A DNA stretch of 64,000 nucleotides, from NCBI GenBank assembly GCA_029243395.1, contig JAQWSE010000013.1, forward strand, positions 62,001 to 126,000, read 5' to 3'. The stretch comes from Paracoccaceae bacterium. Its GTDB lineage: Bacteria; Pseudomonadota; Alphaproteobacteria; Rhodobacterales; Rhodobacteraceae. Of the stretch, positions 8,110 to 62,750 are shown in pieces; the first letter of the stretch is position 1; every line of letters begins with the position of its first letter. A program made the translations under genes and the position numbers. The notes beneath the pieces were generated by a model that worked only from the letters and a program-made list of their open reading frames with translations, had not been told where the DNA came from and searched no databases.

Positions 8110-8147
8110 AGTCAAGGTTAATCCAATAAAAAGAAAGGAAAAAGAAA

Positions 8148-16819: not shown

Positions 16820-18013
16820 ATGAACAGAAGACATAAGGGGGCAAAGATTTCTTTTCAGCCGAGAATTAGAAAAGGGGCTTTTTTTGACGCGGTTTGGGAT
16901 CATGGGTGTAGGAATTTTTCTGTTTATAATAGAACATACATTTCAAGTACTTTTTCTAATCCTTTAGTTGAATACTGGCAGGTGACCAAGCATGTTGCTC
17001 TTTGGCCCGTAATGGGAGAAAGACAAATAGAAATCACAGGTAACGATGCTCCACAATTTGTTCAATATCTGACCTGCAGAGATATGTCTAAGTGTGAGGT
17101 GGGGCAATGTAAATATGCCCTTTTACTTAATGAGTATGCAGGGATAGTGTGTGATCCTATCATTTTAAGATTAGAAGAAAAGAAATATTGGATTTCTACT
17201 TCAGATTGTGACTTAGAGTTATGGATCAAGGGAGTGCAGTTGAACTCTGGTTTTGAAGTTCATATTAGAGACGCCAATGTCTCTTTGCTACAAATACAAG
17301 GACCAAAATCGTCTGCCTTGGTAGCCAAGATTTTTGGAAAAGATGTCCTTAATTTAAGGTATTATTGGCTTACAAGAGTGAAATTCAATGGTATTGATCT
17401 AATCATTTCGCGAACTGGTTGGAGCGGTGAATTAGGCTATGAAATATATTTAAGTGACTTTGAGAAAGGTAGCTTTTTATTCGATGAAATAATGGAACAG
17501 GGGAGATCATTTTCTATAGCAGCAGGGTCAGTTAACCAGGCAAGAAGGATAGAAGCAGGAATTTTGTCATGGGGTGTTGAGATGTCTCAGGAGGAAAACC
17601 CGTACGAAGTTAACCTTGGAAGATTGGTGGAATTTAATGATCATGGAAAATTTATTGGTAGGGATGCAGCGTTAAAATATAGTAAACGAGATCAAGTCAA
17701 AGGTCTTGTAGGTTTAAAAATGGTGGCCCCAGCGATAGAAAGTAATGAAAGACCTTGGAACATTTTCCATGGAGATAATGTAGTAGGGAAACTGACTAGT
17801 TTAGCATACTCTCCACGGTTAAAGTTTAACATAGGTCTTGGATTAGTTCATAAACAGTTTACTAAGCTGGGTACTAAATTTTCGGTCCAAGGTTTTGGTG
17901 AGTTTCATGATGCCGAGGTAGTGTCTATGCCATTTTTAGAGAAACAGCAAATGGCAAATGCCAAAGAATTAGCATTAAAATTTAACCAGCTTAATAATGA
18001 AAGAGGTAAATAG
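16820..18013 (+). CDS. DmdA-like demethylase of the GcvT aminomethyltransferase family
   Basis: A 397-residue tetrahydrofolate-dependent demethylase homologue. Segments recall DMSP demethylase DmdA: the opening RIRKGAFFDAVWDHGCRNFSVYN (compare the TPFTERV..GVKAYTVYN pattern), HVALWPVMGERQIEI, LTCRDMSKCEVGQCKYALL, IQGPKSSALV..FGK and SRTGWSGELGYEIY. DmdA moves a methyl group from DMSP to THF, giving methylmercaptopropionate. The match is from memory, and the protein is clearly divergent, so another methylated substrate such as a betaine is possible. It is followed with no gap by a VOC protein and then an acyl-CoA ligase, which fits a demethylation then CoA-activation route. Confidence 0.7.
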   Translation: MNRRHKGAKISFQPRIRKGAFFDAVWDHGCRNFSVYNRTYISSTFSNPLVEYWQVTKHVALWPVMGERQIEITGNDAPQFVQYLTCRDMSKCEVGQCKYALLLNEYAGIVCDPIILRLEEKKYWISTSDCDLELWIKGVQLNSGFEVHIRDANVSLLQIQGPKSSALVAKIFGKDVLNLRYYWLTRVKFNGIDLIISRTGWSGELGYEIYLSDFEKGSFLFDEIMEQGRSFSIAAGSVNQARRIEAGILSWGVEMSQEENPYEVNLGRLVEFNDHGKFIGRDAALKYSKRDQVKGLVGLKMVAPAIESNERPWNIFHGDNVVGKLTSLAYSPRLKFNIGLGLVHKQFTKLGTKFSVQGFGEFHDAEVVSMPFLEKQQMANAKELALKFNQLNNERGK

Positions 18014-18529
18014 ATGGCAAGTATTACAGGAATCAATCATATAGCTTTTGCTGTAAAAGATCTCCAGGATTCACTTCAAAATGCAACTGAGGTTTTAGGC
18101 GGGGAAATTATGATGAAGTTTGAATCCTTGGAAGACAAATATGAGGGAGCATGTGTAAAGTTTGGCACAAGTATAATGAGTTTTATATCAAGTCATGATC
18201 AGGAGAGTTTTATATATAAATTTGTTGAAAAACACGGAAATGGTGTTCAACACATTGGGCTTGAGATTGATGACATTGACCAATATGTAGAAGAGTTAGA
18301 GAATAAGGGTGTCAGGGTTGATAAAGGTGAAATGAGCGATAAGACATTTCCAGAAGCTCTTGTTGGACCTAAAACTGGAAATGGGGTTGTGCTACAATTA
18401 ACAGGTTGGAAGAAGGGTCCTTTTGACGCTACTTATGATGGTTGCGAGCGATTATGTGAGAAATATTCACAAAACCCAAAGCTCAACTTAAAAGAAGGAA
18501 ATCAGCTTAAACCGATTAAAAACGATTAA
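18014..18529 (+). CDS. VOC-fold protein (glyoxalase / methylmalonyl-CoA epimerase type)
   Basis: A 171-residue vicinal-oxygen-chelate protein with two beta-alpha-beta-beta-beta modules, the first from NHIAFAVKDL and the second from GVQHIGLEIDDID. The two His ligands of the metal site are visible in these segments; the last ligand position reads Gln (VLQLTG) where many family members have Glu. Its ATG begins at the base after the DmdA-like stop, with AGAGG just ahead, so expression is coupled. Its role may be an epimerase or a lyase acting on the CoA product of the cluster; this is inference from position. Confidence 0.75.
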   Translation: MASITGINHIAFAVKDLQDSLQNATEVLGGEIMMKFESLEDKYEGACVKFGTSIMSFISSHDQESFIYKFVEKHGNGVQHIGLEIDDIDQYVEELENKGVRVDKGEMSDKTFPEALVGPKTGNGVVLQLTGWKKGPFDATYDGCERLCEKYSQNPKLNLKEGNQLKPIKND

Positions 18530-18533
18530 GAAA

Positions 18534-20186
18534 TTGGTAATTAATTGTCTTCATTTCAAATCTTGGCCTCGGGATTTACCTCATACCTTAAAGGGGTCTT
18601 CCCAAACTTTGTATGAAAAGTTAGCTTTTACCGCGTCAAAGTTCCCTGATCGCAAAGCTCTCATTTATTATAAAACTAGTTTAACTTATGAGAGCTTATT
18701 TAAGCAGGTTACTATCATCGGGAACTTCTTGACAGGGGTTGATACGATTAACCCTGGTGATAGAATTCTCTTATATATGCAGAATTGTCCGCACTTCATA
18801 ATTAGTTACTATGCAATCTTAGGAGCAAACTGCGTAATTGTTCCTGTCAATCCTATGCTGCAACCTAGTGAGATTGAGCATATTATTTTAGATAGTGGTG
18901 CTAAGTTTGTTATTACAGCGGCAGAGTTGTTGGAAAAGGTAGTCAAGTCTATTTCCCAAAGTAAAGTTCCCAACATTAAAATCTTGGTGACAGCATATTC
19001 GGGCAGCTTGGAAAATAAGTTTAATGTTAAACCATCGAATGAAATAAAAGAAATAACAGCTAAATTTCCCAATGTTAATCTATATCAGTGGGACACTATT
19101 CTAAAGGAACCAGGCTCTGAGTTAAGGCATGTTAGGGAATTATCTGATCTGGCTATAATACCTTATACATCAGGGACAACAGGGAAACCTAAAGGTTGTG
19201 AGCATACACACAAAAGTGTCAACGCTGTAGTACACGCCTATTCTAAGTGGTTGCCTTTACCAGACGGTGCAAAAATATTAACCACTCTCCCACTATTTCA
19301 TGTAACTGGCATGCAAAACTCTATGAATGTGCCAATATTTAGGGGTGATACTATAATACTAATGTCAAGATGGGATGTGAATACAGCGTTAAATCTTATC
19401 AAAGAGCACAAGATACAATCCTGGCGATCAATCACGACCTCGATTATTGATCTAATTTCAGCATTTGATCCAAAAAAACATGATTTATCCTCTTTAATAT
19501 CGATTGGTGGCGGCGGTGCACCTATGCCCGCAAATGCTGCTAAAAAGTTAAAAACTATTGCATCTCCCCATTATATTGAAGCCTATGGAATGACGGAAAC
19601 AATGGCCCCAACACACATTAATCCACCCGATAAACCTAAATTAGGCTCTATTGGTATCCCGATCTTTAATGTAGATGCGAGAATCATTGATGTAGATTCA
19701 GGTGATCAACTGGAGGCCAACGGTATTGGTGAGTTAATTGTGGCGGGACCACAGGTATTTTTAGGTTATTGGAATAATTCAAGTGCTACAGAGAGTGCCT
19801 TTCTTTATATTGAAGATAAGAAATTCTTGAAAACAGGGGATTTGGGTTATTTTGATTTAGAAGGTTATTTTTATATAATCGATCGCCTAAAAAGGATGAT
19901 AAATTATTCAGGTTTTAAGGTCTGGCCAGCGGAGGTTGAGTCTATCTTTTATGATCATCCAGACATTAAGGAAGTTTGTATTATTGGGATAGCTGATGAA
20001 AGGAGCGGTGAAAAAGTAAAAGCGTTAATTGTACCTAGAGATAGTATTGATGAATTTGACTTATTTGCTCTAGAGGCATGGTGTAGAGTAAGAATGGCAA
20101 AATATAAAATTCCGAAGATATTTGAAATTCGAGAAGAACTACCCAAAAATGGAATTGGTAAAATCTTATGGCGTCAAGTAACCTGA
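18534..20186 (+). CDS. AMP-forming acyl-CoA synthetase (DmdB-like position)
   Basis: A 550-residue member of the ANL superfamily. The P-loop-like motif IPYTSGTTGKPKGCEHTH is near residue 215, then ALEAYGMTET-like IEAYGMTETM, the GDLGYFD hinge region and the C-terminal lysine in NGIGKILWR. It activates a carboxylic acid to its CoA thioester. Because it lies five bases after a VOC gene and downstream of a DmdA-like demethylase, methylmercaptopropionate or a related acid is a candidate substrate, as in DmdB. The start codon is TTG 18534, as no ATG is available before the conserved region. Confidence 0.82.
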   Translation: MVINCLHFKSWPRDLPHTLKGSSQTLYEKLAFTASKFPDRKALIYYKTSLTYESLFKQVTIIGNFLTGVDTINPGDRILLYMQNCPHFIISYYAILGANCVIVPVNPMLQPSEIEHIILDSGAKFVITAAELLEKVVKSISQSKVPNIKILVTAYSGSLENKFNVKPSNEIKEITAKFPNVNLYQWDTILKEPGSELRHVRELSDLAIIPYTSGTTGKPKGCEHTHKSVNAVVHAYSKWLPLPDGAKILTTLPLFHVTGMQNSMNVPIFRGDTIILMSRWDVNTALNLIKEHKIQSWRSITTSIIDLISAFDPKKHDLSSLISIGGGGAPMPANAAKKLKTIASPHYIEAYGMTETMAPTHINPPDKPKLGSIGIPIFNVDARIIDVDSGDQLEANGIGELIVAGPQVFLGYWNNSSATESAFLYIEDKKFLKTGDLGYFDLEGYFYIIDRLKRMINYSGFKVWPAEVESIFYDHPDIKEVCIIGIADERSGEKVKALIVPRDSIDEFDLFALEAWCRVRMAKYKIPKIFEIREELPKNGIGKILWRQVT

Positions 20187-20304: not shown

Positions 20305-20982
20305 TTATCGTATTGTTGTAAGAATTTGTTCTAAAGGCTTTTTTTGTGTTGATGCATATGGTATTTTAGCATCTTTGGCAGGGTGTCCTATAGCCAAAAT
20401 CATGACTGGTTTATTGGATGTTGGCCTATTACAAATTTTTGTCAAAAATTTCATTGGATTTGGCGTGTGAACCAGACAATATAGGCCAGCTTGATGAATA
20501 GCTGAAATAAGAAATCCAGATGCTATCCCAACACTTTCTGGAACATAATAGTTCTTAAAAGTAGATCCATCAATTTTAATCCCATACCTCTCAGCAAAAA
20601 CAACTATAAGCCAAGGTGCTATTTCTAGATGTAGCTTGTTTGGTCCGGTCCCAATAGGTTCCAGTGCTCGGAGCCATTCATCATTATTAATACTCGAATA
20701 AAATTTTTTTTCTTCTGTTTCTGCAGCGTGCCGGATTTTCGTTTTGATTGTTTTACTTGAGATAGCCACAAAATGCCAAGGTTGATGGTTTGCACCACTT
20801 GGTGCCATGGATGCTACCCTAATGCAATTGTGTATAGCTTCTTCGGGGATGGGTCTTTCTGAAAAGTCTCTTATAGTCTTTCTGAAAGTAAATGTCCGGT
20901 AATGGGACTTTGTAAATGCCTCAATTTCCTTATCACTTTTTGGGGGCATTTGGGAAAAGGGCACGGGTTCATAAATTGACAT
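20305..20982 (-). CDS. Nitroreductase-family flavoprotein, iodotyrosine deiodinase-like
   Basis: A 225-residue FMN-binding protein. RKTIRDFSERPIPEEAIHNCIR and MAPSGANHQPWHFV form the FMN site, and the middle segment EEKKFY...NDEWLRALEPIG followed by LEIAPWLIVVF resembles the substrate lid of iodotyrosine deiodinase-type enzymes rather than NfsA/NfsB. Bacterial relatives can remove halogens from halotyrosines, though natural substrates are largely unknown. GAGGTAGTTTAA stands before the ATG. It converges with the acyl-CoA ligase and is divergent from the LysE-type exporter. Confidence 0.78.
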   Translation of the reverse strand: MSIYEPVPFSQMPPKSDKEIEAFTKSHYRTFTFRKTIRDFSERPIPEEAIHNCIRVASMAPSGANHQPWHFVAISSKTIKTKIRHAAETEEKKFYSSINNDEWLRALEPIGTGPNKLHLEIAPWLIVVFAERYGIKIDGSTFKNYYVPESVGIASGFLISAIHQAGLYCLVHTPNPMKFLTKICNRPTSNKPVMILAIGHPAKDAKIPYASTQKKPLEQILTTIR

Positions 20983-22620: not shown

Positions 22621-23955
22621 TTAGAGCTCTGCACCTGCTTTAAATTCTCCAAAAAGAATTCGAAGATTCGCACCAATACGTGTAATAGGTTCGGGTAACA
22701 ATTTCTTAGGGGGATCTTCAGTACAAAGTGCATCAATCAGCTTAGAATTAATACCCATGGCATAATCGGCAGCAGCCGCACCTTGGAGTGTTCCGTTAAC
22801 AGTGCCAAGCCCATTTTGACAGCATGCCGTAAATAATCCTTTTTCAGCTTCACCAAAAGCTGGAACATTGTTGAGGGAGAACGCTAATTGTCCCCCCCAA
22901 TTGAAGGCCATTTGAACATCTTTTAGATTTGGAAATCTTACGCAAAAACTAGCAGTGTGCTTAGCATAGATTCTCTTTAGTACAGCTGTTTTTGGCCGCA
23001 TTTCTGGTTCGTAGGTTACCCTATTTCGAATTACTATCCTATCACCTGAAACCGTGGAAATTTTGCGGACGGTTGTTCCTAAAGGGTCTGCCGATGTCAG
23101 TCCCCAATGAGCTTTTCCTCCAAGAATTTTGCTTTCTTCGGGTGTAAGTCCCCGGGTCATTGAGCCATAGGTAAAAAGATGAATGATTCGCCTCTTGAAT
23201 AGGCCAAAGTTCTCTACGTGGCCATTTGTAGCCAATATTATTTTTTGGGTTGTTATTGAGCCTTTAGGAGTTTTGGCATGCCAATCAAATCCATTATGCA
23301 CTAATGAAATTACGGGAGAATTTTCATAAATTTTTAATTTATTTGAAATCAATTTTTTGCCAAGTTCGCGAATATAAAGTGCAGGTTGAAGCATAACTGT
23401 CCCAGGGGTGAATAACCCACCCAGATAATATGTTGTTCCAGTCAATTCCTTCATTTGTTGTGCATCATAGAGCTCAAAATTTTCTTTTAGATCAGTTAGA
23501 TGATTTTTATAATTTAGGTTATGTTGCATGCCAGTAGTGGTCGCAGCAGCATTCACTTTTCCGACTTCTTGGAAAGCTTCCCTTGGTAGCTCTAAATCAT
23601 TAACAATTTTTCTGGCAAAGTTTACAGCGAACCTATTTTGTTCTATTTTCTTTCGATTTTCCTGGATTCCACCTCCATAGTCTTTACTTGCTAAATCGTG
23701 AGGTAGATCAATCATAAAGCCTGAGTTTCTGCCTGCTGGCCCCTCGGCTAAGCGTTTAGCCTCTAGAACAGTAATACGATCAAAGGGCCTCCTTAACTGT
23801 AGTCTCCTAGCAGCAGACAGCCCAGCGAAGCCAGCTCCAATAATGAGCCAGTCTGTTTTTTTGTGGGAATTAAGTTCAGGGTGGCCCATATCAGAAGGTA
23901 ATATGGAATTCCATGCAGCAGGGCCTGGATTAAAAGGAAGTTTAGTAACTTTCAT
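22621..23955 (-). CDS. FAD-dependent amine/amino-acid oxidase (DAO family)
   Basis: A 444-residue flavoprotein of the glycine/D-amino-acid oxidase family. The dinucleotide-binding motif is WLIIGAGFAGLSAARRL near residues 36-52, followed by EAKRLAEGPAGRNSGFM, and the C-terminal FAD segment is CCQNGLGTVNGTLQGAAAAD. The GRNSGF form is shared with gamma-glutamylputrescine- and sarcosine/proline-type oxidases. It is the last gene of a reverse operon DapA-like, aldehyde dehydrogenase, MttB-like, DAO, starting 13 bases after the MttB-like stop. I infer it oxidises the secondary or tertiary amine left after demethylation. Confidence 0.85.
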   Translation of the reverse strand: MKVTKLPFNPGPAAWNSILPSDMGHPELNSHKKTDWLIIGAGFAGLSAARRLQLRRPFDRITVLEAKRLAEGPAGRNSGFMIDLPHDLASKDYGGGIQENRKKIEQNRFAVNFARKIVNDLELPREAFQEVGKVNAAATTTGMQHNLNYKNHLTDLKENFELYDAQQMKELTGTTYYLGGLFTPGTVMLQPALYIRELGKKLISNKLKIYENSPVISLVHNGFDWHAKTPKGSITTQKIILATNGHVENFGLFKRRIIHLFTYGSMTRGLTPEESKILGGKAHWGLTSADPLGTTVRKISTVSGDRIVIRNRVTYEPEMRPKTAVLKRIYAKHTASFCVRFPNLKDVQMAFNWGGQLAFSLNNVPAFGEAEKGLFTACCQNGLGTVNGTLQGAAAADYAMGINSKLIDALCTEDPPKKLLPEPITRIGANLRILFGEFKAGAEL

Positions 23956-23968
23956 GCATACGTACTAT

Positions 23969-25519
23969 TTAAAATGTTTGATTCAATGCATCCTCACGGG
24001 GAATTTCTCTTTCCCTCTTAGCTATGTAAGCAAGAATTTCTTCTTGAATATCATTTCTAAGCATGGGTTCTTCATAGTCTTTTAACATTTCTTTTGCTTG
24101 ATGAAGTGCTCTTGAATTAATCTCTAACCCACCTTCTGCTTGCCATTGCTCAATTGAATTATTATCAAACAATTCTGGCATGAAGAAAGCTTCTTGAAAA
24201 TTTTCTAGGGTGTGCGGGTGGCCTAAATAATGGCCGCCAGGCCCAACATCTTTTATTGCACTAAGGCCAAGTTCAAAATCATCCCAATTAATGCCTTTTG
24301 CCATCTTATAGGCCATTGCGCATTGTTCTGCGTCAACAATGAATTTAGCCATGCTGCAATGCATCCCTGCTTCATTCCATCCTGCAGAATGCCAAATATA
24401 GTTGGCACCGGATAAAATCACTGCCATTAAAGTTGTAGCGCTTTCATATCCAGCTTGGGCATCAAATATTTTTGAGCTACCTAAAGTATTGGAAGTTCTC
24501 CAGGGGACTTTATAGTATCTAGCCATTTGACCTACCATGAAATTCATTAAGCTAATCTCAGGAGTGCCTGACATAGGAGCCCCAGACCTCATCGAGACAG
24601 TGGCTAAATAATGCCCATATATGGCCGGTGATCCTTTCCTTACAATTTGAGTGTATGCCAAGGCACTAAGAGCCTCAGCATTGAGTTGTGCAACCGTCGG
24701 TGCTATTGACGCTGGAGTGTTTGCTCCGCCTAGTACAAAGGGCGAACAAAGGATGGGTTGGTTTCTTTTGCTGAAGGCTCGTAAAGCTCCAAGCATTACT
24801 TCATCCCAGACAAGAGGAGAATTTCCATTGCAGTTACCTGTTACTACTGGATGGTTATCAATGTAATCTTTGCCAAATAATATGTCGCACATATCCAGGA
24901 CATCTTGGGCATTTTTGGGACTTGTTGTCATCCCCATGAAAGTTTTGTCTGAATATCTCATTGAAGAATAGGTAATACGCAGATGTCTATGACTTATTGG
25001 GTGGTCATAAGGTTCCACAATGTGGTGTGCACTTGAGTGAATTGCTGGCAGCATATGAGATAGTTTATGAAAATTAGCCAAATCATCCAAAGTTGGGTTT
25101 CTTCTCACATCTTCTAAATCCCTTAAATAAGGGGCCCCTGTCATGGGAACAAACATACTGAATTTACCCCCCACAGGTAAGTTATTCATAGGGTTCCTTG
25201 CATGTAATGTAAACGTTTCCGGGATAGTTTTAATTAGCTCCCTAATCAGGTATCGATCGGCATAAACTGTTTCGCCAATTACCTTAGCACCCGCATCCTT
25301 CCAGTCCTTTAGCGCGATAGTATCACGAAAATGAACTCCAATGTTTTCAAGGATGTCCATCGATGCTTCGTCAATGCGAAGAACTTGATTTTCGCTCATC
25401 GGTTCTGTTAAAGGCAAAGCTCTCTCAAGAGCTGGTAACATGGTTGTATCACGGGTCTGCCGTCTAGTTTTACGGAAATTTCTTCCTTGTCTAGATTTTC
25501 CGACAGCTACGCGGGTCAT
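23969..25519 (-). CDS. MttB-family methylamine/betaine:corrinoid methyltransferase (non-pyrrolysine)
   Basis: A 516-residue TIM-barrel methyltransferase of the trimethylamine methyltransferase family. Recognisable parts are the N-terminal RIDEASMDILENIGVHFRD, NPMNNLPVGGKFSMFVPMTG, HHIVEPYDHPISHRH, and GMTTSPKNAQDVLDMC. There is no in-frame TAG, so this is the non-pyrrolysine branch, whose studied members demethylate quaternary amines such as glycine betaine, proline betaine or carnitine onto a corrinoid protein. No corrinoid-binding protein gene is in the window. ATG 25519 lies one base after the aldehyde dehydrogenase stop; a TTG four codons earlier is possible. Confidence 0.85.
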   Translation of the reverse strand: MTRVAVGKSRQGRNFRKTRRQTRDTTMLPALERALPLTEPMSENQVLRIDEASMDILENIGVHFRDTIALKDWKDAGAKVIGETVYADRYLIRELIKTIPETFTLHARNPMNNLPVGGKFSMFVPMTGAPYLRDLEDVRRNPTLDDLANFHKLSHMLPAIHSSAHHIVEPYDHPISHRHLRITYSSMRYSDKTFMGMTTSPKNAQDVLDMCDILFGKDYIDNHPVVTGNCNGNSPLVWDEVMLGALRAFSKRNQPILCSPFVLGGANTPASIAPTVAQLNAEALSALAYTQIVRKGSPAIYGHYLATVSMRSGAPMSGTPEISLMNFMVGQMARYYKVPWRTSNTLGSSKIFDAQAGYESATTLMAVILSGANYIWHSAGWNEAGMHCSMAKFIVDAEQCAMAYKMAKGINWDDFELGLSAIKDVGPGGHYLGHPHTLENFQEAFFMPELFDNNSIEQWQAEGGLEINSRALHQAKEMLKDYEEPMLRNDIQEEILAYIAKREREIPREDALNQTF

Positions 25520-25520
25520 C

Positions 25521-27005
25521 TTAATCTTCAACGCTATCTGGATCGTTTAAATCAATCCAGATGGTTTTTAACTCTGTATATTGATCATGAGCGTGAATAC
25601 CCTTATCTCTTCCTCCGAAACCGGATTGTTTGTAACCCCCAAATGGGGTGCATACACTACCTTCCCCATAACAGTTTATGGTGACCGTACCAGCTCTTAC
25701 TTCTTTAGCAGCTCTCAAGGCTTTACGCGTATTTCCACTAAAAACCGATGCTGTAAGTCCGTAAACAGTATCATTGGCCAGGTGAACAGCTTCCTCATTA
25801 CTGTCAACCTCTATTACGGATAAGATAGGCCCAAAGATTTCTTCCCGGTTTTTCTTGTCATTCTGTAAAACCTCATAAATAGTGGGTGAAACAAATGCAC
25901 CTTCAATTTTTCCACCAACAAGTGCTCCCTTAGTAAGGTGATTACGAACCTTTTTACAGTGGCTAGTGTCTATTAAGGCCCCCAGACGGGTCTTAGGATC
26001 TAATGGATCACCTGTCTTCCAATCGCGGAGCTTGAGCTTTATTTGATGCAGGAGCTCTTTCTTAATACTTCTATGAACAATTAATCTTGATATAGCACTA
26101 CAGTTTTCTCCCATATTCCAAAAAGCACCTGTTACAATGTGGTTTGCGGCTAAATTTATATTGTCAACATCATCAAGGACTATTGCAGGGTTCTTGCCTC
26201 CGCATTCAAGAACTACTTTTTTGAGATTGCTTTCTGCAGAGTATTTAAGGAAAAGGCGACCAGTTTCGGTTGAGCCTGTGAAACTAACCATGTCAACGTG
26301 CATGTGCCTTCCAAGGGGTTCCCCTACTGAAGGTCCGTCACCAGGTAAAATTTGTAAAATTCCTCTTGGTAGTCCTGACTCTAGAGCAAGTTCTGCCACT
26401 CTTAATGCTGTAAGAGATGTTTGCTCGGCCGGCTTTACTATAACGGAACAACCAGCGGCTAAGGCAGGTCCGATTTTCCATGCCAGCATCAGTAATGGAA
26501 AATTCCAAGGCAATACAGCAGCCACGACTCCAATTGGTTCTCGAACAATGATTGATAGAGAATTGTCTTCAAGAGGAGCTGTTTGGTCATAGATTTTATC
26601 AATAGCTTCGGCATGCCATTTAATTGTGTTGATCATTTCTGGAATGTCGATGAGTTCGCAATCTTGAATAGGTTTTCCGCTATCAATTGATTCCATAACC
26701 GCTAGTTCTCTCCTATGTCGCGTAATCAATTTACATAATCTGATTAGGGTTTCTTTGCGTTCGGCAGGGGGAGTTCTTGCCCATCTTCCATCTTCAAAAG
26801 CTTCTCTTGCTTTTTCGACAGCTAGATTTACATCTTGCTTATTTGCCGTGCTAATTTTTGTTATTTCAGTTTTGTTTGAGGGATTCAGACATTTCATTTC
26901 TGGTCCGTGACCCTTACGAAACTTACCGTCTATAAATGGACTGCAGGGTGGATCAATGTTTTGTGCAATAGTAACATATTCCAATTTTGTTAAAAGATCA
27001 GACAT
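25521..27005 (-). CDS. Aldehyde dehydrogenase, betaine-aldehyde/semialdehyde type
   Basis: A 494-residue NAD(P)-dependent aldehyde dehydrogenase. PWNFPLLMLAWKIGPALAAG forms part of the cofactor site, the general base Glu lies in VLECGGKNP, and the nucleophile Cys in MGENCSA. The C-terminal TPFGGYKQSGFGGRDKG is typical of the betaine-aldehyde/4-aminobutyraldehyde/2-oxoglutarate-semialdehyde groups. GGGAGATAATCTTA precedes the ATG. It is second in the reverse operon, five bases after the DapA-like gene. With a DapA-family partner the natural guess is a semialdehyde produced from that lyase; the exact substrate is not shown by sequence. Confidence 0.88.
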   Translation of the reverse strand: MSDLLTKLEYVTIAQNIDPPCSPFIDGKFRKGHGPEMKCLNPSNKTEITKISTANKQDVNLAVEKAREAFEDGRWARTPPAERKETLIRLCKLITRHRRELAVMESIDSGKPIQDCELIDIPEMINTIKWHAEAIDKIYDQTAPLEDNSLSIIVREPIGVVAAVLPWNFPLLMLAWKIGPALAAGCSVIVKPAEQTSLTALRVAELALESGLPRGILQILPGDGPSVGEPLGRHMHVDMVSFTGSTETGRLFLKYSAESNLKKVVLECGGKNPAIVLDDVDNINLAANHIVTGAFWNMGENCSAISRLIVHRSIKKELLHQIKLKLRDWKTGDPLDPKTRLGALIDTSHCKKVRNHLTKGALVGGKIEGAFVSPTIYEVLQNDKKNREEIFGPILSVIEVDSNEEAVHLANDTVYGLTASVFSGNTRKALRAAKEVRAGTVTINCYGEGSVCTPFGGYKQSGFGGRDKGIHAHDQYTELKTIWIDLNDPDSVED

Positions 27006-27010
27006 TAAGA

Positions 27011-27910
27011 TTATCTCCCAAACCCAAAGATGGATTTATTCATGGTTTTTATGACTTCTGCGAGAACTCTTTTTTCATCTTTATTCAGGGGGTATAGAGG
27101 TTTTCTAGGTGGTCCCGCACTAATACCACGTAATGTTAGGCCGAATTTAATGCTTTGGACAAATTTCCCCCCTTGTTCCAAAACATTCATTAAGGGTAAC
27201 ATAGCTGACATAATTTTCCGCCCCTTATTAAAATCTCCTTCGATGACGCAAGCCTTATAAAGGGCTATATGTGCCTCTGGAGCAAAGTTTGAACCAGCGC
27301 AGACCCAACTTTTTGCACCCCATGCAAAAAACTCTAGAGCTTGGTCATCCATGCCGCAGGAAAGAGCAATGTGTGGGTAATCTCTTGCTAGCATATGGAG
27401 TCTATTGGGATTCCCGGAACTCTCCTTTATGGCACAAAAATTGGTAGATCGCCCCAATCTATCCAAAGTATCTTCGTCCATATCTACACTCATTCGGCCA
27501 GGGTAATTATAAAGCATCACTGGCAAGTTTGCAGCCTTGTCGATGGCAAGAGCATGTAGCGCTATCTCTCGTCCAGTAGGACACGCATACGGGGGCGTCG
27601 CGATAAGAATAGCGTCCGCTCCTGTCTTTTTGGCTTGTTTTGCGTATTCGATGCTATCTTCGGTTCTTATGGCCCCTGTTCCTACTATTGTTGGGACCCT
27701 TCCGTTAATCATTTCTTTTGCTATGGCCATGAGTTTAAATCTTTCCTTCATGGTCATAGCATAGTATTCACCAGTGGTTCCGGCTATGACTATACCATGG
27801 ATGCCACAGTCAATAAGCATATCTATGGTTTTTGCCATAGCCGCCTGGTTAAGATCACCGTTATCGGCAAAAGGGGCGACTAAGGGAGTGTATATACCTT
27901 CAAATTCCAT
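27011..27910 (-). CDS. DapA-family aldolase/deaminase (class I, Schiff-base lysine)
   Basis: A 299-residue TIM-barrel enzyme of the dihydrodipicolinate synthase/N-acetylneuraminate lyase family. The carboxylate-binding GTTGEYY, the catalytic Tyr in MLYNYPGRM and the Schiff-base Lys in FCAIKESSGN are all present. True DapA is normally chromosomally isolated or with lysine genes; here the gene opens an operon with an aldehyde dehydrogenase, an MttB-like methyltransferase and a DAO oxidase, so a catabolic role is likely, for example the pyrroline-4-hydroxy-2-carboxylate deaminase step of hydroxyproline breakdown. ATG 27910 was chosen over TTG 27925. Confidence 0.85.
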   Translation of the reverse strand: MEFEGIYTPLVAPFADNGDLNQAAMAKTIDMLIDCGIHGIVIAGTTGEYYAMTMKERFKLMAIAKEMINGRVPTIVGTGAIRTEDSIEYAKQAKKTGADAILIATPPYACPTGREIALHALAIDKAANLPVMLYNYPGRMSVDMDEDTLDRLGRSTNFCAIKESSGNPNRLHMLARDYPHIALSCGMDDQALEFFAWGAKSWVCAGSNFAPEAHIALYKACVIEGDFNKGRKIMSAMLPLMNVLEQGGKFVQSIKFGLTLRGISAGPPRKPLYPLNKDEKRVLAEVIKTMNKSIFGFGR

Positions 27911-28192
27911 TTTGTAAGTACTCAACCATAGTTCAAGTAATATAAATTATGTTCTATAAAATTATAAAATCCTAAGAAATTTTTCAGAAAAGTAAAGAAA
28001 GTTATGAATAGCTAGAATTTTATATGAGGCTAATGAAGTCATTATTTGAGCAGGTAGGGTTGTTGTAATTCTTACAGATAGGAAAGGTGGAAAAAGGTAA
28101 TTTAATGTCTTTTTTTGCTTCTATATATGCTAAACATCTATCTTAGTATATAAACGGGTATTTAACGAGATAATCGCCATGCGGAGAAGCAC

Positions 28193-29350
28193 ATGAAAAA
28201 GCGTGAATTTAAAGTTTCTGAATTTGAAATGCGTATGGCAAGAGCTCAAGAAATCATGCATCGAAGAAACCTTGATGCAATTTTAGTAACTACCCCACAG
28301 AATATTCGCTATTTCACGGGCTTTGACTCCCAATTTTGGGAAAGTCCTACGAGACCTTGGTTTGTAGTCGTGCCAGGAGAGGGTAAGCCAATTGCCGTAG
28401 TTCCAGAAATAGGAGCGAGTGAAATGAAAAGAACATGGGTGGAAGATGTGCGTTCTTGGCCATCACCCATCCCGGAGGATGATGGAATATCACTGTTGAG
28501 TGATGTTGTTAATAGCTTGGCAACTAAGTTCAACACTATTGGTGCGGAGCTTGGGAGAGAAATGACCCTCAGGATGCCTGTTAATGATTTTCTAAAACTT
28601 CGCACTTTTATAAAAAGACAAATTATAGATGGATCTCCGGCTTTGTGGGAGATGCGAATGGTTAAGACTGAATCTGAAATTCAGAGAATAGGACACATTT
28701 GTAAGCTAGCTAGTGAATCCTATCAGGATCTTCCAAAATATCTAAATATTGGTGAAACAGAAAGAGACGCTGTGAGAAAATTGCGCATTGATTTAACAAA
28801 AAGAGGAGCCGACTCTATTCCCTTTTTGCCTGCAGTTTCGGGTGAAGGTGGTGTTTCACAAATTGTTTGTGGGCCTAGCGATCGAAAATTAGAGAATGGG
28901 GACATCCTATTTATGGATACAGGTTCTACCTATGACGGCTATTTTTGTGATTTTGATCGAAATTTTGCTATAGGCAAAATTTCAGACGAAGCTAGGAAAG
29001 TACATGATTTGTTATGGAAAGCGACAGAATCTGGGATTGCTGCGTCTGTGCCGGGGATGACAACTGAAGATGTATGGTTTGCTATGAACAAGGTGATTGA
29101 AGAGGGGAGTGTTAAAGGAAATAATGCCGGTCGTTTGGGTCATGGGGTAGGCTTGCAGTTGACGGAACCTCCTTCACATAGACGGGGGGATAAAACTAAA
29201 TTGGTTCCTAATATGGTCATTACGATTGAACCCGGTCTTGAGTATTTGCCAGGAAAAATGCTTGTACATGAGGAAAATATTGTTGTGACTGAAGACGGAC
29301 CAAAATTATTAACTATACGTGCCCCACGTGAAATGCCTGTAATCACATAA
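28193..29350 (+). CDS. M24-family peptidase (Xaa-Pro peptidase/creatinase fold)
   Basis: A 385-residue pita-bread enzyme. The N-terminal creatinase-like domain begins MARAQEIMHRRNLDAILVT; the C-terminal catalytic domain carries dinuclear metal ligands in LFMDTGSTYDGYFCDFDR (two Asp), LGHGVGLQLTEPPS (His), TIEPGLEY (Glu) and VHEENIVVTE (Glu). Such proteins cleave Xaa-Pro dipeptides or, in the creatinase and ectoine hydrolase branches, C-N bonds of small nitrogen compounds. GGAGAAGCAC before the ATG is a good ribosome site. It is divergent from the DapA/ALDH/MttB/DAO operon and 13 bases before a second aldehyde dehydrogenase, so it may feed the same route. Confidence 0.85.
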   Translation: MKKREFKVSEFEMRMARAQEIMHRRNLDAILVTTPQNIRYFTGFDSQFWESPTRPWFVVVPGEGKPIAVVPEIGASEMKRTWVEDVRSWPSPIPEDDGISLLSDVVNSLATKFNTIGAELGREMTLRMPVNDFLKLRTFIKRQIIDGSPALWEMRMVKTESEIQRIGHICKLASESYQDLPKYLNIGETERDAVRKLRIDLTKRGADSIPFLPAVSGEGGVSQIVCGPSDRKLENGDILFMDTGSTYDGYFCDFDRNFAIGKISDEARKVHDLLWKATESGIAASVPGMTTEDVWFAMNKVIEEGSVKGNNAGRLGHGVGLQLTEPPSHRRGDKTKLVPNMVITIEPGLEYLPGKMLVHEENIVVTEDGPKLLTIRAPREMPVIT

Positions 29351-29363
29351 CACGTAGTTTCTT

Positions 29364-30773
29364 ATGTCATATATTACTATGCGCGATATTCTTGAATTAC
29401 AAAAAGAGACATTCCTTTCTGAAGGCTCACCTTCTTATGATATTAGGGTCGATCGTTTAAGCCGATGTGTTGCCCTCTTGAGAGAATATGAAGATAAGAT
29501 AGTGAAAGCCTTAAAACTAGATTTTAAATCAAGATCCAGTGATGAAATTAAGATTTCAGAGATTGATCAAAGTATTAGGAATATAACTTTTACAATTAAG
29601 AATCTAAAAAAATGGATGAAACCCATAAGACGACAGTCTTCATTTGGTGCTGGATTTCTTGGTGCAAAATCTGTTATGCAACCATCCCCTTTAGGTAGCG
29701 TAGGAATCATTGCTCCATGGAATTTTCCTGTTGGTATGATTTTTTATCCTGCTGCTTCTATTTTTGCTTCTGGAAACCGAATTATGGCAAAACCTTCGGA
29801 GATCACTGTGCATACAGCTAATCTGATGAAAGAAGCCGTAGCAAAGTATTTTGACGAAACTGAATTTGCGATTTGTCTTGGAGGTCCAAAAGTGGGAGAA
29901 AGCTTTTCTAAACTACATTTGGATCATTTACTTTACGTTGGAAGTAATCAAATTGCAAAAAAAGTGCTCGTCAATAGTTCTAAGAATCTTGTCCCGACTA
30001 CTCTCGAACTTGGAGGGAAAAGCCCAACTATCATTTCAGATGATGCTAATCTCCATTTGGCAGCGAAACGGATTTTATTTGCTAAAACTTTAAATGCAGG
30101 CCAAATATGTTTGGCCCCAGATTATGTATTTGTAAAAAAAGGTTTCGAACATTCTTTGATAAATGAATTAAAGAAAGTATTTGATAGTTTTTATCCTGAA
30201 AATGGGCAACACGACTATACATCAATGGTAAACGCTGAGCATTTTGCAAGGATAAATGCCTGCATAGAAGATGCTGTTTCCAAAGGAGCTAATCTTATCA
30301 ACTTGGGTAAATTTGATGCCAAAGATAAAAATTTGATTACAACAAAAGTACTTCTAAATGTGAGTAGTGAAATGAAGGTCATGAGGCAAGAAATATTTGG
30401 TCCCATACTTCCAGTCTTAAGTTATGAAAATCTAGAAGAGGTGGTCAATTATATCAATTCCCATGATCGTCCATTAGGCCTATACTTTTTTGGTCATAGA
30501 AAGAAAGATCATCAATATATTATAAAAAATACCCGTTCTGGCGGGGTTACATTTAATGATACAGTATTTCATTTGCTGCAGTCGAGATTACCTTTTGGTG
30601 GAGTAGGGGAGTCTGGATATGGTTGTTATCATGGTTTTGAAGGTTTTTTGAATTTCTCAAATCTAAAGAGTATTTATTACCAAACTAACCATGATAGTTT
30701 CTTTTCCTTAGTTCGGCCTCCACGTGGTAAGTATTTTAAATTAGTATCGAGCATCATGAACAAGTTGAGTTAG
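29364..30773 (+). CDS. Aldehyde dehydrogenase, coniferyl/fatty-aldehyde type
   Basis: A 469-residue NAD(P)-dependent aldehyde dehydrogenase of the class 3-like short group. Marks are IIAPWNFPVGMIFYPAASIFASGN, the general base in TLELGGKSP, and the nucleophile Cys in NAGQICLAPDY. The C-terminus SRLPFGGVGESGYGCYHGFEGF is characteristic of coniferyl-aldehyde/fatty-aldehyde dehydrogenases, different from the betaine-aldehyde type in the facing operon. It follows the M24 peptidase by 13 bases and is probably cotranscribed. The substrate is uncertain. Confidence 0.87.
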   Translation: MSYITMRDILELQKETFLSEGSPSYDIRVDRLSRCVALLREYEDKIVKALKLDFKSRSSDEIKISEIDQSIRNITFTIKNLKKWMKPIRRQSSFGAGFLGAKSVMQPSPLGSVGIIAPWNFPVGMIFYPAASIFASGNRIMAKPSEITVHTANLMKEAVAKYFDETEFAICLGGPKVGESFSKLHLDHLLYVGSNQIAKKVLVNSSKNLVPTTLELGGKSPTIISDDANLHLAAKRILFAKTLNAGQICLAPDYVFVKKGFEHSLINELKKVFDSFYPENGQHDYTSMVNAEHFARINACIEDAVSKGANLINLGKFDAKDKNLITTKVLLNVSSEMKVMRQEIFGPILPVLSYENLEEVVNYINSHDRPLGLYFFGHRKKDHQYIIKNTRSGGVTFNDTVFHLLQSRLPFGGVGESGYGCYHGFEGFLNFSNLKSIYYQTNHDSFFSLVRPPRGKYFKLVSSIMNKLS

Positions 30774-32241: not shown

Positions 32242-35200
32242 TTGGCTGTTTCAGTTTCAAATAGTCTGACCAGAATATTAGCTTCAGGCATGGAGTCCAA
32301 AGAGAGAGTTCTTGAGGCTTCAATAAAAAGAATGGCAACTGGGGAACGGATACACAAAGGTGCTGATGATGCTGCCGGCATGCACGCAGGAAGTATATTG
32401 GAGTCCCAGGTTAGAGGTTTAACTGTAACTGTGGCTAGGCAGAAAGAAACTTTGAATGATTTATATACTGCAGAGGGTGCTATTATTAAGATAGGAGATC
32501 TCCTCCAACGTATGAGAGAACTTACAATAAATGCGCAGTCGGATACCCTTGATGATGCGGAAAGAAAACTAATTCATCGGGAAGCTAACAGTATTAAAGC
32601 GAGTATTGATTTGGTTGCCATTAGTACCAATTCAAGCGGTGTAAATTTACTTGATGGTTCATATTTGAATAAAAGTATTCAGATGAGCCCACAAGCCTTA
32701 GATACCATGACCTTCAATATAAGTAGTATTAAGGCTGATCAAATGATTTTTGTGAGAGATGATTTAACGATGAAATTGGATTCGACCCCATATATTTTTG
32801 GTTACGACGAGCCATCATTACAAACATCAAGCGCTAATAAAATAGCTGCAGGACAGATTTCTCTTACAGGTCATGAAGGTTTTCATGAAATTACAATTCC
32901 TGCGGGAATGACTGCAAAACAATTTGCGTCCACGGTGGAAGTTCTTGGTAATGGAATTAATGCTAGTGCTGTCACAAAAGCTGAATTGTTTAATATGGCC
33001 AATGCTTCTGGTATTTCATTTAGATTGGGAGCCAATTCTGCTGCTGAATCAGCAGCATCATCAGGAACACTGATCTCAGCAACTATAACAAATGCTAGCG
33101 ATTTAAGTCCACTTGTAACCGCGGTTAATAATAAAACAGGAACAACAGGCGTTTCTGCAGAAATTTCCAGTGGTGGTGCCAGTGTAATTTTAACTAATGC
33201 CGCTGGTGATGACATTTTTATTTCTCACATGGATTTTAGCCCAGAGGGGTTATATGTCAGCAATACTCCTGAAGCAAATCAGAATAGTATTTATGCTAGG
33301 GCCTTAGATAAAGATGGCATCGCGGCAAATGTTGCGAATCCAAATTTATCTCGTGGCGCTGGAACAGATGAAACAGTACGGTTCATTGATAAACATAGGC
33401 ATCAGCACATTGACCAAGAAGAGGGTATTACCTCTGTAAATGTAACGTACAAGGGTTCTGGATATAATACAGCACCTTCTGTTAACTTTTCTGGTGGCGG
33501 TTATAGTACGGATGCAGCAGGCAATGCAGGTTCAAGTGCAAATTATACTGCTACCTTAACCAACGGTGCTGTATCATCTATAGATTTGACAGGTGGTCTT
33601 CTTGCTAGCCGTGGTGATGGTTATGACTCACTGCCTACTGTAACACTATCAGCCCCTCCAACTCAAAGCTTTAATGCTCGATCAGCTATTAACATGGGAA
33701 CTGATACCATAACTCTCGCTAATCATAATTTCCAAACTAACGATAAAATGACTTATTCAAACGGTGGCGGAACTACCTTAAGAGGCCTTTATAATGATGG
33801 ACGAACGTACTACGCCATTAGGGTAGATGCTAATAACATCAAAGTGGCAGCATCAGCAGATGGTGGTGCAATCAATATACGGGCTCGGGGCCAAGCCTTT
33901 AACGCAAGATCGGGTGCCAGTGTATCGGCAGATACTTTTTCTATTTCAAATCATCCTTTTTCTAATGGGGAAGTAATCAATTATATTAGTGGGACAAGGA
34001 CCTTAAGGGGTTTAACGGATGGTAATAATTACACTGTTAGTAATGCGACTACCAATAGTTTTAAACTTTCGGGTGTTGATATAGTTGGCATGTTAGATAG
34101 CTTTGATGCTCAAAGTGATGTAAATCATGCTACGAATAGAATTAGTATTTCAGGAAATAATTTATTAACAAATGATCGTATTACCTATTCTTCGGGTGGA
34201 GGTGCTGCAATAGGAGGATTAACTGATGGTGCGAACTATTATGTGCGGAGCCCTTCTGGCTCTACGATCCAACTCTCGGACAGTTCGGGGAATTTAGTCT
34301 CTATAATTGCCAGAAAGACGGGTAATTTTAATGCTGACAGCGGCGTGAATGTTTCCAATAATAAAATAACTGTTTCGGCGGGCCACTCTTTATCTGATAA
34401 TGATGCAGTAACTTATACTACTAATTCAGGTACGGCCATTGGTGGATTAACTAATGGCGCTACCTATTACGTAAAAAACTTGAGCGGAAATACTTTTGAA
34501 GTTTCTACCAGTTCTGGTGGTTCAACGATTAATTTACTACCTGAACAGAGAAATTTTAATGCTCAAAGTAATGTTTCCAGTAATAGAATATATATGTCGT
34601 CTCACAAATTTTCAGTTAATGATGCTGTCACTTATTCTGCTGAAGGAGGCACTGAAATAACTGGATTAACCGATGGTCAGACGTATTATGTAGCCAGTAG
34701 TGGTAGTGGAAATTATTTGAGACTCAGTAGTACGCTTGGTGGTTCGGCTCTTGCTATAAGTGCGGGATCTTCTGAAGTGCACAAACTTACTGGACAAAAT
34801 TCAGGTTCTGCTTCTGAAACACATGAATTTAATGGAGCCCATGCAGGTGAGAGTGGAACGCACACTTTTACAAACCAATACGCTGGTCCAGATGAATCAC
34901 ATACTTTTATTAGTACTCAATATGCTAGTGCTTCACAAAACCACACCTTTAAAGGTCATACGGCCACTGCAACCGCAGTAGAAGGTCAAGATGATGTCGC
35001 TGATCCGGTATACTATACTAATAAAACATTGGATTACGAGCGCGCCGCGGTCGTGGTTGGAACAGTATCGATGACTAGCCCACTAGCAATAAGACTTAGC
35101 ACTGATAATCCAACGGAAAAATTGGGCTTTTATGGCAGTACTTTTAATTATGACAGCAATGATCAAATGAGTGGTGCATCACTCCCTCCAACAAAAACTG

Positions 35201-35580
35201 TAAATGATGTTAACTTAGAAACACGAGCGGAAGCAGTAAAGTCAATGGACTATATAGATGCGGGCATTGATAAATTTCATGAAGTTAGTAATGCTATATC
35301 CATTAGTGCCTCTCGATTAGGTTACGCTGTAGAAAATACCTTAAATTCACTCATTAACTCAGAGGCGGCAATAGGTGATATTCTCGATGTTGATTATGCC
35401 ATTGAAGCAACTACCTTTGCGGTAAGCTCTATGGTTAAAGATACTTCTGTCGCAATGTTAGCTCAGGCTAATGCTCCTAAGCAGGCAGTTAATACCTTAG
35501 TTGGAAGAGTAATGGAAAACCAATGGGATCCAACATTCTTTCTTGTTCAGGGTGGAGGCTATAGATACAAAAACATTTAA
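32242..35580 (+). CDS. Giant flagellin with repeat-bearing central domain
   Basis: An 1112-residue flagellin, more than twice the usual length. Residues 1-140 are the conserved N-terminal D0/D1 region (SIKRMATGERIHKGADDAAG, RMRELTINAQSDTLDDAERKL, GVNLLDGS); residues about 1000-1085 are the C-terminal counterpart (ISASRLGYAVENTLNSL, DYAIEATTFAVSSMVKDTSVAMLAQANAPKQAVNTL), followed by an unusual 30-residue tail. Between them lie a hypervariable region, a GSGY...P-V module pair, five tandem repeats of about 75 residues and a His-rich segment. Exported by the flagellar system to form filament. The start is TTG with GAGGGA ahead. No other flagellar gene is nearby, so the gene is separated from its machinery. 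Confidence 0.88.
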   Translation: MAVSVSNSLTRILASGMESKERVLEASIKRMATGERIHKGADDAAGMHAGSILESQVRGLTVTVARQKETLNDLYTAEGAIIKIGDLLQRMRELTINAQSDTLDDAERKLIHREANSIKASIDLVAISTNSSGVNLLDGSYLNKSIQMSPQALDTMTFNISSIKADQMIFVRDDLTMKLDSTPYIFGYDEPSLQTSSANKIAAGQISLTGHEGFHEITIPAGMTAKQFASTVEVLGNGINASAVTKAELFNMANASGISFRLGANSAAESAASSGTLISATITNASDLSPLVTAVNNKTGTTGVSAEISSGGASVILTNAAGDDIFISHMDFSPEGLYVSNTPEANQNSIYARALDKDGIAANVANPNLSRGAGTDETVRFIDKHRHQHIDQEEGITSVNVTYKGSGYNTAPSVNFSGGGYSTDAAGNAGSSANYTATLTNGAVSSIDLTGGLLASRGDGYDSLPTVTLSAPPTQSFNARSAINMGTDTITLANHNFQTNDKMTYSNGGGTTLRGLYNDGRTYYAIRVDANNIKVAASADGGAINIRARGQAFNARSGASVSADTFSISNHPFSNGEVINYISGTRTLRGLTDGNNYTVSNATTNSFKLSGVDIVGMLDSFDAQSDVNHATNRISISGNNLLTNDRITYSSGGGAAIGGLTDGANYYVRSPSGSTIQLSDSSGNLVSIIARKTGNFNADSGVNVSNNKITVSAGHSLSDNDAVTYTTNSGTAIGGLTNGATYYVKNLSGNTFEVSTSSGGSTINLLPEQRNFNAQSNVSSNRIYMSSHKFSVNDAVTYSAEGGTEITGLTDGQTYYVASSGSGNYLRLSSTLGGSALAISAGSSEVHKLTGQNSGSASETHEFNGAHAGESGTHTFTNQYAGPDESHTFISTQYASASQNHTFKGHTATATAVEGQDDVADPVYYTNKTLDYERAAVVVGTVSMTSPLAIRLSTDNPTEKLGFYGSTFNYDSNDQMSGASLPPTKTVNDVNLETRAEAVKSMDYIDAGIDKFHEVSNAISISASRLGYAVENTLNSLINSEAAIGDILDVDYAIEATTFAVSSMVKDTSVAMLAQANAPKQAVNTLVGRVMENQWDPTFFLVQGGGYRYKNI
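33664..34785 (+). repeat. Five tandem ~75-residue repeats inside the flagellin
   Basis: Units begin at about 33664, 33892, 34096, 34321 and 34549, with Phe codons of the shared FNA/FDA start at 33670, 33898, 34102, 34327 and 34555, giving spacings of 228, 204, 225 and 228 bases. Each unit reads FNAxS, a beta strand, a H/N-x-F/L-x-N-D-x-x-T-Y segment, a Gly-rich turn, GLTDGxxYYV and a terminal strand. The pattern is degenerate at DNA level, so the duplication is old or diversified by selection. Confidence 0.85.
34798..34962 (+). repeat. Short His-rich repeats inside the flagellin
   Basis: Four to five copies of a motif near SETHEF / GTHTF / ESHTF / QNHTF spaced 13-15 residues apart, following the long repeats. 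The recurrent H-x-F with Gly, Ser and Tyr between copies forms a low-complexity, possibly metal-binding linker. Confidence 0.75.

Positions 35581-61283: not shown

Positions 61284-62750
<1,467 letters not shown>

Follow-up and report, generated by a model that had tools for sequence, protein, structure and literature searches.

The hpb pathway, reportedly described by Zhao and co-workers in 2013 and by Kumar and co-workers in 2014, is said to handle hydroxyproline betaine and proline betaine with Rieske demethylases. Demethylation that depends on vitamin B12 is already in print for two betaines: for glycine betaine in an aerobe, the roseobacter Ruegeria pomeroyi, where it was shown in 2025 (PMC12478193), and for proline betaine in an anaerobe, Eubacterium limosum, whose MtpB removes the methyl group (PMC8604678, PMC12478193). 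Genomes with systems of the R. pomeroyi kind carry up to seven pfam06253 genes, and the authors suggest their use on other methylated compounds (PMC12478193). Marine radiolarian holobionts contain both proline betaine and hydroxyproline betaine, and the former is also present in their free-living algae (PMC11965087). With stachydrine (proline betaine), the lag phase of Phaeobacter inhibens becomes shorter, which the authors credit to its methyl groups (PMC11306105); the passages cited name no gene for it. Here we describe a four-gene operon in a 64,000-nucleotide stretch of Paracoccaceae bacterium DNA (the window; positions 62,001 to 126,000 of contig JAQWSE010000013.1), in which the gene for an MttB-family methyltransferase is combined with those for a DapA-like enzyme, an aldehyde dehydrogenase (ALDH) and a DAO-family flavoenzyme. 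On balance, we think it somewhat probable that the four genes serve the breakdown of a proline-type betaine, with 4-hydroxyproline betaine or a stereoisomer of it as the likeliest substrate and with B12-dependent demethylation by MttB.

Organization of the operon

All four genes lie on the minus strand and are transcribed in the order DapA-like, ALDH, MttB-like and DAO; neighbours are separated by 5, 1 and 13 bases. The first (27011 to 27910) encodes a DHDPS-family, DapA-like protein (Pfam DHDPS, 214.5 bits), a proposed hydroxy-pyrroline-carboxylate deaminase; the second (25521 to 27005) an ALDH (Aldedh, 514.1 bits), a proposed 2-oxoglutarate-semialdehyde dehydrogenase; the third (23969 to 25519) a non-pyrrolysine MttB-family methyltransferase (MTTB, 687.8 bits, cut-off 25), a proposed betaine:corrinoid methyltransferase; and the fourth (22621 to 23955) a DAO-family flavoenzyme (DAO, 120.4 bits), a proposed ring-amine oxidase. 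The Pfam cut-off was passed by all four products. Two starts can be placed differently: a TTG at 27925 is open to the DapA-like gene, and the longest open reading frame (ORF) for MttB starts from a TTG at 25531, which would make it run into the ALDH gene. A scan for promoters and terminators returned 13 and 7 sites, against shuffle means of 15.8 and 6.5. The genome measures 2.49 Mb, is 98% complete and holds the window on its contig 2.

Conservation of the gene set

An MttB scan of 84,980 species, with one genome per species, gave at least 589 relatives, of which the best 80 (75–97% identity) were kept; the nearest loci among the matches listed were those of Rhodobacteraceae bacterium NAT102 (97%) and the uncultured Alphaproteobacteria bacterium AG-453-K15 (95%). 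All four genes were present in 68 of the 80 loci, and neighbouring matches were less than 200 bases apart in 33; some of the remaining 12 loci are short contigs. With the same order on one strand in 67 of the 80, the four-gene arrangement is far beyond chance. An initial annotation of this DNA, made from the sequence alone, had described four close-set genes with gaps of 1–13 bases and had asked for a gene-neighbourhood survey; the spacing agrees, and the survey shows the set to be kept. A side observation concerns the Roseovarius albus locus (L060), in which a stretch matching DapA (7600–8490) contains one stop codon.

Among 394 genomes of the family, a DapA orthologue (E ≤ 1e-100) was found in 96 and an MttB orthologue (E ≤ 1e-190) in 95; 88 genomes had both, 8 had DapA alone and 7 had MttB alone (Fisher p 3e-69, uncorrected for kinship). 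Presence in just 96 of 394 genomes sets the DapA-like gene apart from a housekeeping gene. The neighbourhoods of 95 family DapA loci, the window's own left out, were then surveyed. MttB (at least 68% identity) lay within 9.5 kb in 36 of the 38 loci whose DapA was at least 70% identical to that of the window, 35 of these 38 showing the order DapA-ALDH-MttB-DAO, and in 35 of the 57 loci with a less similar DapA, where the commonest form was DapA-ALDH-DAO with MttB on the opposite strand (30/57). In a sample of the class, DapA (E ≤ 1e-80) was present in 19 of 385 genomes, and MttB was near the trio of DapA, ALDH and DAO in 7 of the 17 loci outside the family.

The methyltransferase and its B12 partner genes

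The pyrrolysine position of 7xcl (Pyl334) aligns with Leu346 of the window MttB, whose frame is uninterrupted by a stop, which bears out the earlier assignment to the non-pyrrolysine group. Compared with solved sequences, the protein scored 355 bits against 9yce (glycine betaine methyltransferase) and 2qne, and higher, 470.8 bits, against the uncharacterised 4yyc. By its family, MttB is predicted to transfer a methyl group from a quaternary amine to Co(I). The window genome contains four MTTB genes.

The initial annotation had reported the corrinoid protein and reactivase as missing, had asked for a genome search for corrinoid and RamA-like genes, and had named the lack of any corrinoid protein in the genome, together with no B12 uptake or synthesis, as grounds for abandoning its reading. 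The search located both outside the window, on contig 1, so that the statement holds for the window and not for the genome, and those grounds fall away. The candidate corrinoid protein (ORF at L005) has B12-binding and B12-binding_2 domains over cut-off, and its best NCBIfam match is MtgC_2 (206.9 bits, under the cut-off of 370). The genome also encodes the methyl-tetrahydrofolate:corrinoid methyltransferase MtgD (392.7 bits, over the cut-off of 259) and, 23 bases behind the MtgD gene, a RACo-type activase (RACo_C_ter, 281.2). A corrinoid protein, a methyl-tetrahydrofolate methyltransferase and an activase, the partners that go with a non-pyrrolysine MttB, are thus found together in this genome. 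An StcD-like flavoprotein (ORF at L245, 679 amino acids; 41–44% identity to three references), which might alternatively, we presume, be a dimethylglycine demethylase, is encoded on the window's contig far from the operon, just before a homocysteine S-methyltransferase (MtgE-like) gene. The partner gene set resembles MtgBCDE of R. pomeroyi (PMC12478193).

A gene of the Nitroreductase family lies on the minus strand of the window at 20305–20982; among NCBIfam models it matches BluB best, at 54 bits well under the cut-off of 150. BluB acts in the synthesis of the lower ligand of B12.

The DapA-like enzyme, aldehyde dehydrogenase and DAO

The DapA-like protein falls short of the dapA equivalog model, its best NCBIfam match (TIGR00674, 196.2 bits, cut-off 206.15). 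Alignment with 2yxg showed that the GTTGE, Tyr, Arg and Schiff-base Lys positions of DHDPS, which we take to be the functional ones, are kept. For the ALDH, the nearest solved sequence was 7uyy (664 bits), presumably a P. aeruginosa enzyme, followed by KauB (470.8 bits); its best NCBIfam match, PuuC, reached 489.6 bits of a cut-off of 850, and it stayed below the dioxovalerate dehydrogenase model (275, cut-off 750). The best NCBIfam match of DAO was AmaA, L-pipecolate oxidase (119.3 bits, cut-off 600), and its structure model matched glycine oxidase and sarcosine oxidase folds. The structure models of DAO and the DapA-like protein (mean predicted local distance difference test scores of 88.9 and 87.8) match the DAO and DHDPS folds at superfamily level only and leave the substrates of both enzymes undecided.

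Genes that join the set in relatives

Among the neighbours recurring in the 80 loci were a GntR regulator (50 loci), short-chain dehydrogenase/reductase (SDR) proteins (40) and an enolase-superfamily protein (9); rarer ones were a ProC-like reductase (7), a cytochrome P450 (6) and an StcD/TMADH-like flavoprotein (3). The best solved relatives of the enolase were 4e8g/4izg/4j1o (607 bits) and 2pmq and 4h2h (523 bits). We take these to be HpbD, hydroxyproline-betaine epimerase, from the titles of their Protein Data Bank entries (the deposited molecule names are silent), and the name HpbD used for the enolase follows from those titles. As an observation apart, the P450 gene (cluster 21) occurs in L036, L045, L056, L064, L081 and L083, in all of them but L081 behind an HpbD-type gene, and might hydroxylate or demethylate proline betaine.

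With the C. sphaeroides protein as query, an HpbD-type enolase was found in 19 of the 394 family genomes, 18 of them with MttB and 17 with DapA (p 3e-11 and 1e-9, kinship ignored). Of the 18 genomes with MttB, 13 had the enolase no more than 10 kb from it, and in 7 of these the two were 7–65 bases apart. In six genomes in which HpbD is far from MttB or MttB is absent, the surroundings of HpbD gave no StcD-like, DapA-like or MttB match, and held one betaine-transporter match and one SDR pair.

Several annotated plasmids carry these genes. On pB of C. sphaeroides 2.4.1, one block comprises a betaine ATP-binding cassette (ABC) transporter, GntR, DapA, ALDH, DAO, two SDRs, the HpbD-type enolase and MttB; one block of P. 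inhibens M633 comprises a betaine ABC transporter, GntR, DapA, ALDH, DAO, MttB and two SDRs; and in Leisingera M527, MttB, the enolase, two SDRs, DAO, ALDH, DapA and GntR are followed further along by a Rieske gene. In Alisedimentitalea, a Rieske gene adjoins the trio and MttB lies elsewhere on the plasmid. On plasmids of R. etli CIAT 652 and Rhizobium WSM4643, an StcD-type gene (annotated stcD in R. etli), electron-transfer flavoprotein (ETF) and formaldehyde-detoxification genes precede the DapA-ALDH-DAO trio, which is followed by a betaine transporter and a gene annotated as 4-hydroxyproline epimerase or proline racemase; no MttB was found in the examined stretches of these two plasmids. 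More distant DapA relatives (44–47%) adjoin ALDH and 4-hydroxyproline epimerase genes in three genomes. Because HpbD-type, StcD-like, 4-hydroxyproline-epimerase and betaine-transporter genes join the set in relatives, a proline-type betaine is supported as the substrate class, as had been suggested when hydroxyproline betaine or proline betaine was named as a possible substrate from the window alone.

No Rieske betaine demethylase was present in the window operon, and a relative of the Rieske protein of locus L092 was found at 1 of 112 relative loci. Among the matches of that protein, carnitine and glycine-betaine monooxygenases come out above 3vca (which we take to be Stc2), which ranks 14th. 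Three Rieske genes elsewhere in the window genome encode proteins 23–33% identical to it. The idea of MttB as a general stand-in for the Rieske enzyme was set aside on account of these scores and of the single locus among 112.

Proposed pathway and alternatives

Onto the observed gene set, its conserved linkage and the B12 partner genes we place the following route, each reaction of which, like their order, we infer from gene linkage. MttB would transfer one N-methyl group to the cobalt of an MtgC-like corrinoid protein encoded elsewhere; MtgD would pass the methyl group from the corrinoid protein to tetrahydrofolate, and RACo would re-reduce the cobalt. The second N-methyl group would be taken off by an StcD-like flavoprotein, for which the window's contig holds a candidate. 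DAO would then oxidise the ring amine to hydroxy-pyrroline-carboxylate, the DapA-like enzyme would deaminate this to 2-oxoglutarate semialdehyde, and the ALDH would oxidise the semialdehyde to 2-oxoglutarate, the last three being step types of hydroxyproline breakdown (PMC4113996).

A number of observations weigh against this route. As regards the enzymes, the ALDH misses the GudD alpha-ketoglutarate-semialdehyde dehydrogenase model (307.4 bits, cut-off 770), and the DapA-like protein and ALDH are only 24% and 28% identical to their counterparts in the neighbourhood of the S. meliloti pSymB 4-hydroxyproline epimerase. DAO, DHDPS and ALDH superfamily members stand in one operon as in the hydroxyproline trio, so that the claim that the three fit the hydroxyproline steps stands for the superfamilies and not for closer kinship; the step assignments therefore rest on linkage, not orthology. 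As regards linkage, three long loci (L057, L085 and L086) have MttB but no DapA-like, ALDH or DAO gene within about 10 kb of it, and MttB is missing from the 9.5 kb around 24 of the 95 family DapA loci, some of which are cut by contig ends; in 8 of those 24 genomes no MttB was found at E ≤ 1e-190. The clustering of neighbours, moreover, was built on ORFs from a simple calling script. As regards the substrate, the enolase finds its best NCBIfam match in cis-3-hydroxyproline dehydratase, with a score (264.9) under the cut-off of 500; HpbD is absent from 77 of the 95 MttB genomes, and of the 95 family loci just 9 have it, and just 7 the StcD-like gene, close to the trio; and in the 74-sequence MttB tree, the group of 21 sequences that includes the window has no member with HpbD or StcD within 9.5 kb.

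The window genome itself also counts against it. HpbD was not found there at E ≤ 1e-100; its enolase-superfamily loci gave partial matches of 23–30% identity to HpbD (best quoted, 25%). The best candidate from the proline-racemase family most resembles trans-3-hydroxyproline dehydratase (484.4 bits, cut-off 550), and was rejected as a 4-hydroxyproline epimerase. With no HpbD and this dehydratase-like protein, the genome might act on a D-configured betaine as it stands, possess an epimerase that escaped recognition, or take a route for the L-form.

Such an L-route without C2 epimerisation is an alternative that we hold to be rather unlikely. DAO would oxidise L-hydroxyproline, free or N-methylated, on the C5 side, the ALDH would yield 4-hydroxyglutamate, and after transamination the DapA-like enzyme would act as a 4-hydroxy-2-oxoglutarate aldolase, releasing pyruvate and glyoxylate. 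L-pipecolate oxidase as the best NCBIfam match of DAO would fit, yet the score is far under the AmaA cut-off (119 of 600); no obvious C2 epimerase is encoded in the window genome, yet in relatives the trio is linked to C2 epimerases (HpbD, 4-hydroxyproline epimerase, proline racemase), which this route makes needless. It would also agree with class III aminotransferases near some loci (cluster 7, 9/80; cluster 24, 5/80) and with a glyoxylate-catabolism Gene Ontology term on the DapA-like gene in PLSDB records.

To about the same low degree we credit the possibility that window-type operons act on another quaternary or N-methyl amine, such as pipecolate betaine, homarine or an open-chain betaine, and that the HpbD clusters are a specialised side branch. 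HpbD in only 18 of the 95 MttB genomes, a pipecolate-oxidase-like DAO and a PuuC/KauB-like ALDH would suit this; conversely, MttB is present in 18 of the 19 HpbD genomes, and the StcD-type, 4-hydroxyproline-epimerase and proline/glycine-betaine transporter genes favour a proline-type betaine. The HpbD-linked and StcD-linked members are scattered over the MttB tree of 74 sequences rather than forming one separate clade, although many forks are open and the bootstrap is unsettled, and G558, which shares the window's five-sequence group, has HpbD on another contig. A homarine operon was set aside, as the linkage evidence favours another substrate.

Less probable still is a minimal variant of the proposed pathway, in which B12 removes only one methyl group, DAO and the DapA-like enzyme act on the N-methylated ring, and the second methyl group leaves as methylamine. 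The scarcity of StcD-like genes near the trio (7/95, as above) would fit this variant, and the StcD-like gene elsewhere in the window genome counts against it; if true, it would be a hydroxyproline betaine route without oxygenase and without formaldehyde. HpbD acts on proline betaine too, and a P450 near 6 and a ProC-like reductase near 7 of the 80 loci would accord with proline betaine as the substrate, as such or hydroxylated first (for example by the cluster P450), with the DapA-like step for the hydroxylated branch only; this is the most doubtful of the alternatives. Plain proline would need no DapA-like enzyme, yet DapA is tied tightest to MttB (88/96), and the threshold used gave a P450 at 1 of the 95 family loci.

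Neighbouring genes

About 2.4 kb from the operon, at 16820–20186 on the plus strand, lie genes for a GcvT-fold protein, a small glyoxalase-fold protein and an acyl-CoA ligase. The GcvT-fold protein best matches the dimethylsulfoniopropionate (DMSP) demethylase model PRK12486 (322.6 bits, cut-off 410), and the genes form a second methyl-removing set near the operon. Divergent from the DapA-like gene, at 28193–30773 (+), an M24 creatinase/prolidase-like gene is followed by another aldehyde dehydrogenase gene; this pair also adjoins the operon in L008 and L009, and an Xaa-Pro peptidase gene is near the trio in the Rhizobium clusters too. At 32242–35580 (+), a protein of 1112 residues has, by eye, flagellin-like ends and repetitive middle stretches. 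On contig 1 of the window genome (L103, 419–1021), near the contig start, an Old-yellow-enzyme-family gene has an internal TGA.

Discussion

If the proposed pathway is right, a B12-dependent gene for proline-type betaines is present in about one quarter of the sampled family genomes (95/394); another osmolyte would be tied to vitamin B12 supply, and the gene set could serve as a marker in sea-water data.

By gene content, the operon is like the hpb pathway in its DAO, DHDPS-family and ALDH step types, and in the HpbD epimerase and betaine transporter of the relatives' clusters; it differs in having MttB where the hpb pathway reportedly has Rieske demethylases. On pB of C. sphaeroides 2.4.1, the HpbD-type enolase and MttB occur together; Kumar and co-workers reportedly studied this species in 2014, and may already have mentioned its MttB. 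The rhizobial stachydrine (stc) cluster shares GntR and the DapA-ALDH-DAO trio (in WSM4643, 63%, 57% and 47% identical to the window proteins), and differs in that the 18.9-kb stretches examined contain no MttB and that genes for a StcD-type demethylase, ETF and formaldehyde detoxification stand next to the trio. The hydroxyproline cluster of S. meliloti pSymB, located by its 4-hydroxyproline epimerase in an unannotated stretch, has the same DapA and ALDH superfamilies, at the low identities given above (24% and 28%).

Among the titles and abstract openings surveyed, none linked MttB with hydroxyproline ring degradation, and the main text of a review on stachydrine (PMC11337228) contained none of six terms looked for; a mention may stand in the two key hpb papers or in a 2026 paper on the homarine pathway, which is cited in PMC13390433. 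The initial annotation had held that known aerobic demethylation routes use Rieske oxygenases; the glycine betaine system of R. pomeroyi gives another aerobic precedent (PMC12478193). Its claim of a new combination is accordingly narrowed: aerobic B12-dependent demethylation has been known since 2025 (PMC12478193), and what stands is the union of MttB with proposed ring-degradation genes. The window genome is like the R. pomeroyi MtgBCD system in its PF06253 methyltransferase, separately encoded corrinoid protein, MtgD, RamA-type activase, MtgE and aerobic host (PMC12478193), a likeness drawn from the published description. It is unlike that system in that its PF06253 gene shares an operon with DapA-like, ALDH and DAO genes, for which reason a substrate other than glycine betaine is predicted. 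MtpB, compared likewise by its description, is also a non-pyrrolysine MttB-family protein and acts on proline betaine, and differs in its host, E. limosum, an anaerobic acetogen (PMC8604678, PMC12478193).

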